The notes under the pieces are model-generated. The model did no database searches. It saw nothing but the letters and a program-made list of their open reading frames with translations, and had not been told where the DNA came from. From Planctomycetota bacterium (GTDB lineage Bacteria > Planctomycetota > Planctomycetia > Pirellulales > PLA5), in NCBI GenBank assembly GCA_003576845.1, contig QEVJ01000033.1:1-53446 (forward strand): 53,446 bases of DNA, given 5' to 3'. A program made the translations under genes and the position numbers. Numbering within the stretch: the first letter of the stretch is position 1; each line of letters begins with the position of its first letter. Below, one piece after another: positions 6,982 through 12,770 of this stretch.

Positions 6982-7473
6982 ATGAGTACCGAGCGCATTC
7001 TCACCGACGACATGATCGCCGAGATCAAGGCGTTCTTTCCGCGCTATCCGACGCGGCAAGCGGTGACGCTGCCGGCGCTGCACGTGGTCAACGAGCGGCT
7101 GCGATACGTCCCGCTGCAAGCCGTCGTGGAAATCGCCGAACTGCTCGACCTCGCTCCGGCTCAGGTCCAAGACACGCTTAGCTTTTACGGCTACTTCAAG
7201 CAAGACAAGCCGCACGGCGAAACCCGAGCCTGGGTCTGCCGCTCGATCGCCTGTGCCCTCCGCGGCGGCGAGGAAGTCATGGCCCACATGTGCCAGCGGG
7301 CAGGCATTCACGCGGGCGAAACCACTGACAACGGCAAGCTCACGATCGAAACGGCCGAATGCCTCGGCGGTTGCGAATACGCCCCGTGCATGCTCGCGGG
7401 CGAAACACTACATAAGGATCTGACGGCGGAAAAGGCCGATGCGTTCTTGAAGGATGTTGGAGTTGGCAGCTAG
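6982..7473 (+). CDS. nuoE: NADH-quinone oxidoreductase subunit E
   Basis: A 163-residue thioredoxin-like subunit carrying the [2Fe-2S] cluster N1a. Ligands are Cys-x4-Cys in VCRSIACALRGG and Cys-x3-Cys in ECLGGCEYAPC. The N-terminal helical domain (IKAFFPRYPTRQAVTLPALH) and DTLSFYGYFK are typical. The ATG at 6982 lies shortly after the inverted repeat. With NuoF it forms the NADH-oxidising tip of complex I. Its normal partner nuoF is displaced by an inserted two-gene cassette. Confidence 0.95.
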   Translation: MSTERILTDDMIAEIKAFFPRYPTRQAVTLPALHVVNERLRYVPLQAVVEIAELLDLAPAQVQDTLSFYGYFKQDKPHGETRAWVCRSIACALRGGEEVMAHMCQRAGIHAGETTDNGKLTIETAECLGGCEYAPCMLAGETLHKDLTAEKADAFLKDVGVGS

Positions 7474-7500
7474 AAACGCATAACGGAAACTGCGCATACG

Positions 7501-8469
7501 ATGAAGGCTACCTCGACAACACGACGACGATCGCGCGGAGCGGCACAAAGCCGGACGCTGTTCGATCGTATGGCCGCAGACGCCCCGCGCGCCGCTGTCG
7601 TCGAGGGCAGCTATAGCCTGTTTCACGCCGACGCATTCGATTGGCTCGCCGCCGCCCCGGTGAATTCGATTGAAGCCGTCGTCACGGATCCGCCTTATGG
7701 CCTTATTGAATACACCGAAGAGCAACTCAAGAAGCGAAAAAGCGGCAGCGGAGGCGTCTGGAGAATTCCGCCCTCGTTCGATGGACACAAACGCTCTCCG
7801 CTTCCGCGATTCACCGTTCTCAAGGCCGACGATCACCAGCGACTCCGCGACTTTTTCGCCAAGCTTGCTGCGGGACTGATACGGGTCATGGTGCCCGGCG
7901 CCCATCTGTTCATCGCGACTAATCCACTCGTGTCCTACCTCGTCTACGAGCCATTGATTCAGGCCGGCTTCGAGAAGCGCGGCGAGATCATCCGGCTCGT
8001 GCAAACGCTTCGCGGCGGCGATCGCCCAAAGAACGCCGAAGATGAGTTTCCGATGGTCAGCGTCATGCCCCGCTCCTGTTGGGAACCGTGGGGACTGTTC
8101 CGCAAACCGTGCGAAGGCCGCGTCCACGAAAACCTGCGAAGGTGGAAGACCGGTGGACTTCGCCGAATCTCCGAAAAAGAACCATTCCGCGATGTGATCG
8201 AGTCGTCCGTAGCCCGTAATGGCGAGCGCAAGATCGCGCCCCACCCATCGCTCAAGCCGCAACATTTTCTTAGGCAACTCTGTCGCGCGGCTTTGCCGCT
8301 GGGAGAAGGGACGATTCTCGATCCATTCATGGGTTCCGGCTCGACCGTCGCCGCGGCGGTCGCATGTGGAGCGAAGGCGGTTGGTATTGAAGCGAACGAA
8401 GAGTATTTCGTGATGGCGGCAAAGGCCGTCGGTGCATTGGCCACTCACCGAGTTAATGGAGAGGGCTAA
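7501..8469 (+). CDS. Beta-class DNA methyltransferase (N4-C or N6-A)
   Basis: A 322-residue AdoMet-dependent DNA methyltransferase. The catalytic motif IV TDPPYG is at residues 62-67, before motif I (LDPFMGSGST, 273-282) and the HPSLKP motif (248-253). This order defines the beta class. The region between (residues 85-245, including VWRIPPSFDGHKRSPLP) should contain the target recognition part. DPPY allows N6-adenine or N4-cytosine methylation; the target cannot be read. It begins 27 bases after nuoE and its stop codon directly abuts the next start, so it forms a cassette with the following gene. No terminator separates it from the nuo transcript. Confidence 0.88.
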   Translation: MKATSTTRRRSRGAAQSRTLFDRMAADAPRAAVVEGSYSLFHADAFDWLAAAPVNSIEAVVTDPPYGLIEYTEEQLKKRKSGSGGVWRIPPSFDGHKRSPLPRFTVLKADDHQRLRDFFAKLAAGLIRVMVPGAHLFIATNPLVSYLVYEPLIQAGFEKRGEIIRLVQTLRGGDRPKNAEDEFPMVSVMPRSCWEPWGLFRKPCEGRVHENLRRWKTGGLRRISEKEPFRDVIESSVARNGERKIAPHPSLKPQHFLRQLCRAALPLGEGTILDPFMGSGSTVAAAVACGAKAVGIEANEEYFVMAAKAVGALATHRVNGEG

Positions 8470-9087
8470 ATGCCGAGAAAACAGGATTTCGATCCGAGCG
8501 TCGCACTGCCTCCGGGGCTCGATGTCGCTCAAATCCGCAAGGCGATTGAATATGTCGAACGAGAAGCATCCGACTTGGTAGAAATCTACTTCGAGCAGGC
8601 CAACGTTTTCAGCGCGATCATCGGAATTCTCGGCACGAAGGCAATGGACCAAGTAAGTTGTTATGAAAAACACCGCAACATCGATACGGCGCAGCAGCGG
8701 TTTCCTGATCTGAAACGTCGAGGCTCGGGAGCGAATCCAACTCCGAATAACTCATTGGAGAGTAAAGGAAGCAAACGGCCGTGGGCGATCCAGTCACACT
8801 ACGATCATCCTGGCTGGTACATCGTTTGGAGGTATTTGGTCGACACGACCAAGATGATCCAATCGGACAAGTCAGTGATTATCTGGCGCGTCGACGTTGT
8901 GTTTTTGGAGCGAGGCGACTGGAAATACGAGGGAAGTGGCGCTGGCGTACACGGCGGCGGACGCACGCACACCTTTGGAGTTACGAATCCCGCAAAGAAA
9001 CTCAATGGCAAAGCAGTTTACGCTCGCAAGGACGTCGTGATACGCAACAGCAAGCCCGTTCCAGTTAACGGCGACCACGACGAATGA
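8470..9087 (+). CDS. Probable type II restriction endonuclease
   Basis: A 205-residue protein with no family I can name. Its position, with the start codon immediately after a DNA methyltransferase stop, is the main argument for a restriction partner. A possible PD-(D/E)xK core is present: Pro79-Asp80, then Glu97-Ser98-Lys99 followed by Gly-Ser, with a strand-like WAIQSHYDHPGWYIVWRY after it. The base composition looks more AT-rich than the nuo genes. It would cut unmethylated DNA at the site protected by the upstream enzyme. Alternatives are a different methyltransferase-linked defence protein. nuoF resumes 28 bases later. Confidence 0.6.
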   Translation: MPRKQDFDPSVALPPGLDVAQIRKAIEYVEREASDLVEIYFEQANVFSAIIGILGTKAMDQVSCYEKHRNIDTAQQRFPDLKRRGSGANPTPNNSLESKGSKRPWAIQSHYDHPGWYIVWRYLVDTTKMIQSDKSVIIWRVDVVFLERGDWKYEGSGAGVHGGGRTHTFGVTNPAKKLNGKAVYARKDVVIRNSKPVPVNGDHDE

Positions 9088-9115
9088 ACTCGAAGAACCA
9101 ACGACAATAGTACCC

Positions 9116-10471
9116 GTGCCCCAGTTCGAACCCGTCCTACTCGCGAACATCCACAAACCCGACAGCCATACGCGCAAAGCGTATGAAGCGTCTGGCGGGT
9201 ACTCCGCGCTCAAGAAGATTCTCAAGGAGAAGACACCGGCGGAAATGATCGACCTGGTGAAGGCCAGCGGCCTGCGCGGTCGCGGCGGGGCGGGCTTTCC
9301 TTGCGGGCTCAAGTGGTCGTTCTTGCCGAAGAACCATCCCGGCCCGATTTATATGTGCGTTAATGCCGACGAGAGCGAGCCGGCGACGTTCAATAATCGC
9401 ATCTTGATGGAACTCGATCCGCACCAGGTGATCGAAGGCACCATCATGGCCTGCTACGCCACGCAAGCCAGCACGGCCTACATCTATCTCCGCATCGAAT
9501 ATCCAACCTGCTACCGCCGCCTCGAAGCCGCCATCGCCGAATGTTACGACGCGGGCTATTTGGGCAAAAACATCTTGGGCAGCGGGTTCTCGCTCGATAT
9601 CTTCGTCCATCGCGGCGCGGCGGCGTATATCTGCGGCGAAGAGACCGGCCTCATCGAAAGCCTCGAAGGCAAACGCGCCTGGCCCCGCATCAAGCCGCCG
9701 TTTCCCGCCGTCGAGGGCGTGTTCCGCAAGCCGACCGTGGTGAACAACGTCGAGACGATGGCCTGCGTCACGCATATTGCGGCCCGCGGGTCGGATTGGT
9801 TCAAGTCGATTGGCGTCCCGGCCGATCCGAACAATCCCCGCGACGCCGGCAGCTACGGTCCGAAGCTGTATTGCCTCTCGGGCCACGTCAATAAGCCCGG
9901 CTGCTACGAGCAACCGCTCGGCATCACGTGCCGGCAACTGATCGACGAATTCGGCGGCGGCGTCTGGAAGGGCCGCAAGGCGAAGGCCGCGGTCCCCGGC
10001 GGGATCAGCATGGGCTTGCTCACGGCCGCGGAACTCGACACGCCGCTCGACTTCAACGCGCTCGGCAAGGTTGGTTGCCTCGGTCTCGGCACGGCCGCGG
10101 TGACGGTCATGGACGACACGACGAGCATGATCGACTTCCTGCACAACACCTGCCGGTTCTTCTCGCACGAAAGCTGCGGCCAATGCACGCCCTGCCGCGA
10201 AGGAACGCATTGGGCACTGGCGATGATGGAGCGGATCAAGGCGGGCAAGGGCCGGGTCAAGGATTTGGATTTGCTGCTCGAAATCGGCGACACCATCGGC
10301 ATCATCCCCGGCTCGACGATCTGCGGATTGTCCGACGGCGCGGCTTGGCCGATCAAGAATGCGATTCGGAAGTTCCGGCAGGAGTTCGAAGACTATATCA
10401 AGACGACAAACCCGACGGGATACATGGTGACGGAGGCGGTGCCGGCGCTCGTGCCGCTGTCAGTGCATTGA
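9116..10471 (+). CDS. nuoF: NADH-quinone oxidoreductase subunit F
   Basis: A 451-residue NADH-binding subunit with FMN and [4Fe-4S] cluster N3. Motifs seen: GLRGRGGAGFPCGLKW (nucleotide-binding Gly-rich loop), NADESEPATFNNR, GAAAYICGEETGLIESLEGKR (long FMN/NADH region) and the cluster motif ESCGQCTPCREG with a later Cys in STICGLSDGAAWP. Start is the GTG at 9116, 28 bases after the restriction gene. It pairs with NuoE as the electron input module, although the two genes are separated here by 1.64 kb. Confidence 0.96.
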   Translation: MPQFEPVLLANIHKPDSHTRKAYEASGGYSALKKILKEKTPAEMIDLVKASGLRGRGGAGFPCGLKWSFLPKNHPGPIYMCVNADESEPATFNNRILMELDPHQVIEGTIMACYATQASTAYIYLRIEYPTCYRRLEAAIAECYDAGYLGKNILGSGFSLDIFVHRGAAAYICGEETGLIESLEGKRAWPRIKPPFPAVEGVFRKPTVVNNVETMACVTHIAARGSDWFKSIGVPADPNNPRDAGSYGPKLYCLSGHVNKPGCYEQPLGITCRQLIDEFGGGVWKGRKAKAAVPGGISMGLLTAAELDTPLDFNALGKVGCLGLGTAAVTVMDDTTSMIDFLHNTCRFFSHESCGQCTPCREGTHWALAMMERIKAGKGRVKDLDLLLEIGDTIGIIPGSTICGLSDGAAWPIKNAIRKFRQEFEDYIKTTNPTGYMVTEAVPALVPLSVH

Positions 10472-12253: not shown

Positions 12254-12302
12254 AATGCCATCGCGGAATTCCATTGAAATGTCACACTGCAAACTCGCAC
12301 GA

Positions 12303-12770
12303 ATGAAATTCCTAGCTGTACTCGTGACTTTAGTCGCCGGCACAGCGCTGTGCGTTGCCGCGCCCGCCGCGCTTGAGCTACTCGAAGGTCCGCGATATCG
12401 CGCCGTCAGCCCCGAGAAAGACAGCGGCCGCGGCCACCTTCAGCCGTGGGCCGAATTGGTCGGCTCACCGGTGAAAGTCGAAGGCATTGTCTGGGGCATG
12501 TTCGAAAAGGGCTACGATCCCTACGTGGTAACGGCCAACGGAAAAATCCACTTGCCCAGCGCCCTCGAAGGCAAGGAAGCCTGGAACGGAAAGCTCATTC
12601 GAGCAACGGGTATTCTTGCGACAAAAGAAATCCGTGCCGCGGCAAACAAAGGCCTTGTATCACAAGGCCCGGCGAAGAACGGGTTCATCTTCATCCTGAA
12701 GGATGCCACCGTCGAGCAAATCGACCAAAGCAATTGGCCCTGGCTCCAAGTAGTCGAAACGAAGAAATAG
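12303..12770 (+). CDS. Small secreted protein of unknown function
   Basis: A 155-residue protein with a clear signal peptide (MKFLAVLVTLVAGTALCVAA) and a mature part of about 130 residues. Segments such as SPVKVEGIVWGMF, DPYVVTANGKIHLP and GKLIRATGILATK look like alternating beta strands of a small OB-like barrel, but this is only an impression. I do not recognise the family. It lies between nuoG and nuoH on the same strand, where complex I operons usually have nothing. It is either co-transcribed cargo or an exported accessory protein. The ATG at 12303 gives the signal peptide directly; an earlier ATG at 12255 would add 16 residues. Confidence 0.75.
   Translation: MKFLAVLVTLVAGTALCVAAPAALELLEGPRYRAVSPEKDSGRGHLQPWAELVGSPVKVEGIVWGMFEKGYDPYVVTANGKIHLPSALEGKEAWNGKLIRATGILATKEIRAAANKGLVSQGPAKNGFIFILKDATVEQIDQSNWPWLQVVETKK

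Follow-up and report, generated by a model that had tools for sequence, protein, structure and literature searches.

A probable type II restriction–modification gene pair between nuoE and nuoF in the complex I operon of a planctomycete

Two genes lying between nuoE and nuoF, within the complex I operon of a Planctomycetota bacterium, most probably encode a compact type II restriction–modification (R-M) system without a control gene, situated at a permissive nuo junction and probably transcribed with the nuo genes; we assign this reading a probability of roughly 0.83. The two genes, here termed M (methyltransferase) and R (nuclease), are intact and encode conserved catalytic motifs, R has the fold of a restriction enzyme in structural comparisons, the pair is linked across phyla, M recurs at the same junction in four families, and the equivalent sites in sister species are empty. 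M and R are presumably active enzymes, with a role in defence and a benefit to the host.

The window (the whole stretch of DNA analysed, 53,446 nucleotides) carries a complete nuoA-N cluster, in which ORF analysis places nuoE, M, R and nuoF on the same (+) strand. nuoE, encoding the 24-kDa subunit of complex I (6982–7473, stop codon 7471–7473; Pfam PF01257, 2Fe-2S_thioredx, 2.2e-37; TIGR01958, 3.9e-32), is followed by a 27-nt spacer (7474–7500) and then by M (7501–8469, 322 residues), assigned as a beta-class N6-adenine/N4-cytosine DNA methyltransferase from PADLOC, Pfam and an alignment of 29 relatives. The start codon of R (8470–9087, 205 residues), a predicted PD-(D/E)XK type II restriction endonuclease on the basis of an AlphaFold2 model, PDB fold matches and linkage to M, is immediately 3' of the M stop codon, i.e. 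the M–R spacer is 0 nt. A 28-nt spacer (9088–9115) then leads to the GTG start, at 9116, of nuoF (9116–10471; TIGR01959, nuoF_fam, 9.4e-168), encoding the 51-kDa NADH-binding subunit. The ORF coordinates thus agree with an earlier note on this DNA, which described two co-oriented genes with spacers of 27 and 28 nt between nuoE and nuoF and no terminator nearby; terminators in the cassette region were indeed not above chance. Promoter and terminator signals in the nuoE–M spacer were likewise not above chance, a scan of the cassette region gave no match to a sigma-70-like promoter, and no direct or inverted repeat pairs were found at the cassette borders. The tight spacing, together with the overlapping stop and start codons seen in a related cassette (below), suggests that transcription of the pair may be coupled to respiration. 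Elsewhere in the operon, between nuoG and nuoH, there is a 171-residue ORF with a signal-like start and no Pfam match (12255–12770, +); the nuoG–nuoH gap of the window is the only one of at least 350 nt among 45 genomes.

The assignment of M as a beta-class DNA methyltransferase, as had been proposed, is borne out by profile matches and motif order. M matches the PADLOC type II methyltransferase model (MTase_II, PDLC03215) at 4.6e-120 and Pfam PF01555 (N6_N4_Mtase) at 3.1e-15. In an alignment of 29 sequences, motif IV (DPPY, residues 63–66; 7687–7698, +), of which D63, P64 and P65 are invariant, precedes motif I (FMGSGST, residues 276–282; 8326–8346, +), with its invariant F-x-G-x-G, an order that places M in the beta class. 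M therefore has the intact catalytic motifs characteristic of the methyltransferase of a type II system, and it fits the same model family as the MTase_II-type systems of PADLOC, with M and R as separate genes side by side.

Unlike M, R gave no match to the models of PADLOC, Pfam, NCBIfam and PHROGs or to PDB sequences; one of 28 homologues matched PADLOC REase_II, at 8.7e-4. R thus falls within no named restriction endonuclease sequence family of Pfam, NCBIfam or PADLOC, and, as judged from these searches, its family appears to be absent from the profile libraries used. The case for R is instead made by motif, fold and linkage, which agree. Across the alignment of 28 homologues the catalytic P79-D80 (8704–8709, +) is invariant, as are E and K of E97-x-K99 (8758–8766, +). 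In a confident AlphaFold2 model (pLDDT 89.6, pTM 0.87) P79-D80 lies just before a strand formed by residues 81–83, with E97 and K99 within a second strand (residues 95–101), so that the core residues are positioned on the PD-(D/E)XK superfamily fold. The top rows of a Foldseek search were EcoRV, NaeI and BglI, with weak E-values (best 0.057), and the fold argument hence rests on a second structure aligner and on the agreement of the motifs. With that aligner the best 30 rows were all type II restriction endonucleases (Z-scores: NaeI 9.3, SfiI 8.0, NhoI 6.5, BglI 6.3, EcoRV 6.3, SwaI 6.2), and proteins of other kinds matched only at Z below 4.

R is related in fold to the EcoRV/NaeI branch (NaeI Z 9.3 over 141 residues; EcoRV Z about 6), but is only 8–13% identical to these enzymes and is shorter, and it lacks the second domain of NaeI. 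Its catalytic spacing, D-x16-E-x-K, is close to that of EcoRV, which is D74-x15-D90-x-K92. Considered together, the predicted structure, the catalytic residues and the linkage to M indicate that R is very probably a PD-(D/E)XK type II restriction enzyme, its activity being predicted, encoded separately from M. The PD...ExK-like core that had been noted in the second gene is therefore well founded, and no match to a non-nuclease family emerged.

The linkage of the two genes is conserved in unrelated genomes, as expected for a type II R-M system. A search for relatives of R in 84,980 species genomes gave 30 loci in about ten phyla, including Planctomycetota, Acidobacteriota, Chloroflexota, Pseudomonadota, Myxococcota, Actinomycetota and Nitrospirota. 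M adjoins R in about 28 of the 30, the exceptions being L006, which is at a contig edge, and L022; a few of the pairs are convergent or divergent. Since homologues stay side by side across so many phyla, M and R are not a chance pair of ORFs. A more distant pair in another genome has, by inspection, M fused to a helix-turn-helix and facing a divergent R-like gene. Outside the order to which the window belongs, the pair adjoins the ATP synthase epsilon gene (atpC) in one context, and elsewhere is beside genes for lipoyl synthase (lipA) and an OB/HD-domain protein, for aspartate/ornithine carbamoyltransferase (pyrB) and for LepA (lepA), neighbours which indicate that a compact cassette amid housekeeping genes is the usual habit of this M–R family. 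No R was found in phage, plasmid and viral contigs. In two Chloroflexota loci (L023 and L025) the pair comes after a phage portal protein gene and before a co-directional Na/Pi cotransporter gene, the neighbours being confirmed by Pfam in L025 and assigned by similarity of translations in L023.

R is not intact everywhere. Its homologues carry nonsense codons in three other genomes, and the R-M system is thus not always kept active. In two loci from genomes assigned to different phyla, L006 (366–368) and L012, the in-frame stop is at the same residue, equivalent to Q108 of the window R (WAI*SHYDHPGW), L012 retaining M beside the stopped R; in L030 the stop is at codon 4.

Within the order, R is present in four of 397 genomes and M of the window type in 18. 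nuoE and nuoF are normally adjacent, as had been stated (gap of at most 210 nt in 52 of 61 relatives), and M is missing from their junction in 57 of the 61 surveyed genomes, including one of the same genus (G001), where the junction is empty at 95 nt. The two genes are therefore far from ubiquitous at this position. The four genomes with M at the junction represent four families. One of these (G055), from another family than the window, has the same order, nuoE-M-R-nuoF, with overlapping codons at the nuoE/M (ATGA) and R/nuoF (TAATG) boundaries; the junction is empty in its congeners G019 and G045. Another (G050) has M without R, the end of M overlapping the start of an unharmed nuoF. In the fourth (G028; L062:1755–3485) M is followed by a 198-residue protein without a Pfam match and then by a GmrSD_N (DUF262) protein, possibly constituting a methyltransferase plus a GmrSD-type system. 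Other inserts at the junction comprise a Uma2 family gene (G005), a T5orf172 gene (G072) and two further genes (G023). In the samples checked at class and phylum level no further cases of M between nuoE and nuoF were found.

These inserts are concentrated in one part of the operon. Inserts of at least 700 nt occur between nuoE and nuoF in seven of 61 genomes, as against one of 529 at other nuo junctions when nuoF–nuoG is left out (Fisher 6.7e-7) and seven of 583 when it is counted (Fisher 9.9e-5). Six nuoF–nuoG gaps among the 61 genomes hold inserts of this size, some without a convincing gene, and since nuoF–nuoG is a similar hotspot, nuoE–nuoF is not singular; rather, the nuoE-F-G stretch is permissive in this order. 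Inserts between nuoF and nuoG in relatives (L127:6933–7601, L120:10315–10995, L099:6930–7319, L119:11587–11964, L147 and L095) encode AbiEii/DUF6036-like nucleotidyltransferases, a 23S rRNA-intervening-sequence protein and others. In one low-completeness genome the nuoF match (G065:C512) contains one in-frame TAG. With conserved flanks enclosing differing whole-gene cassettes or none, the nuoE–nuoF junction has the form of a minimal mobile element, as compared between species, not strains.

The association of M with this junction is old. The four junction Ms are monophyletic in the M tree (support 98/97), with 72–76% amino acid identity overall; in aligned protein they differ by 19–23%, a divergence similar to that of NuoF. 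At fourfold synonymous sites they are 26–43% identical, i.e. saturated, compared with 49–62% for nuoF. The retention of amino acid identity while fourfold sites are saturated implies purifying selection on M, and saturation within one clade argues for a long-standing presence at the site; it also rules out recent transfer among the four hosts. By parsimony on the nuo tree (FastTree, 58 concatenated nuo sets), one gain needs at least 12 losses, compared with four gains without loss; independent gains are, however, disfavoured because the Ms at one site are monophyletic. M may have persisted vertically since a common ancestor, with many losses, or may have been passed between relatives in the distant past through recombination in the flanking nuo genes. 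The M data do not separate the three possible four-host topologies; rpoB prefers (window,G050)(G055,G028), which differs from the best pairing in the M tree, but this rpoB pairing is not rejected by the M data. The C terminus of the G028 M is only 35–41% identical to the other three, which are 53–71% identical to each other in this region. This pattern suggests a foreign C terminus, acquired by a crossover within M, for which a donor was sought and not found.

G050, with no R, and G028, with another partner and the foreign-looking M C terminus, are compatible with the restriction partner having been lost or replaced; R may have been ancestral at the junction, although the R tree is poorly resolved. 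A stronger proposal is that the junction is an old docking site at which M has been inherited since the families split, the partner being exchanged and expression tied to respiratory demand; we regard this as rather unlikely.

In the preferred reading of a compact type II R-M system at a permissive junction, M would recognise a particular short DNA sequence and methylate an adenine or a cytosine within it, so marking the host genome, and R, a nuclease of the EcoRV/NaeI branch, would cleave the same sequence in incoming DNA wherever it is unmethylated. The cassette would occupy a junction resembling a minimal mobile element, with both proteins made from the nuo transcript. The restriction partner varies by host: R in the window and G055, none in G050 and a GmrSD-type gene in G028.

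The tight intra-operon spacing, and the GC3 of M and R (0.66 and 0.61), which is below that of the nuo genes (0.77–0.85), might alternatively be taken to reflect a selfish cassette that the operon acquired and then stabilised, since losing it would disrupt complex I. The latter idea, i.e. that costly loss protects the cassette, was advanced in the earlier note, but is not supported. The junctions of close relatives are clean: those of sister species measure 85–99 nt and lie between intact nuoE and nuoF, whether through loss or because they were never filled, and G050 keeps M without R and without damage to nuoF. Strong stabilisation also predicts a higher frequency of R than is found in the order, and the age of M at the junction argues against recent capture. 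We thus consider capture with stabilisation improbable. Less probable again is that M is a regulatory methyltransferase used by the host, with a non-restriction accessory protein as its neighbour and a functional association with nuo. Its recurrence at exactly this junction in four families, and its occurrence without R or with another partner, are in keeping with such a role; by contrast, its absence from the junction in most surveyed genomes, including the same genus, the catalytic residues and restriction enzyme fold of R, and the presence of M–R pairs beside the unrelated atpC, lipA, pyrB and lepA are not. A chimeric contig or binning artefact, although conceivable for a draft assembly of 289 contigs, is exceedingly improbable, because the four genes occur in identical order in an independent genome (G055), two more genomes have M at the junction, and the flanking NuoE and NuoF are both closest to those of the same-genus G001 (89% and 93% identical, respectively).

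The arrangement is not without precedent, contrary to the earlier suggestion that no such case had been described. In Neisseria the NmeDI R-M genes lie between pheS and pheT, and those of NlaIV between leuD and leuB (PMC7973814); a minimal mobile element has been defined as two conserved genes flanking differing whole-gene cassettes (PMC3082526). As at pheS/pheT, the genes on either side of the R-M cassette in the window encode subunits of a single core enzyme, with cassettes differing among members. The Neisseria cassettes, however, vary within a naturally transformable species, whereas those at nuoE–nuoF differ from family to family within an order, lie in a complex I operon, and have junction Ms that all belong to a single old clade. 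Target duplication or inverted repeats accompany the insertion of some mobile R-M units (review, PMC3874152); the window pair resembles these as a presumably movable R-M cassette, but no flanking repeats were found around it. A literature search on R-M genes at nuoE/nuoF returned nothing relevant. The cassette is a further example, in a different operon and lineage and with an unlisted restriction enzyme family, rather than a new kind of system.

The results add a restriction enzyme family that is missed by current profile libraries, and indicate that, beyond Neisseria, restriction genes can repeatedly and lastingly occupy junctions within a core respiratory operon. They also offer a workable system in which to ask whether defence genes benefit from being carried on housekeeping transcripts, and how a methyltransferase gene can keep its position although the restriction gene paired with it varies.
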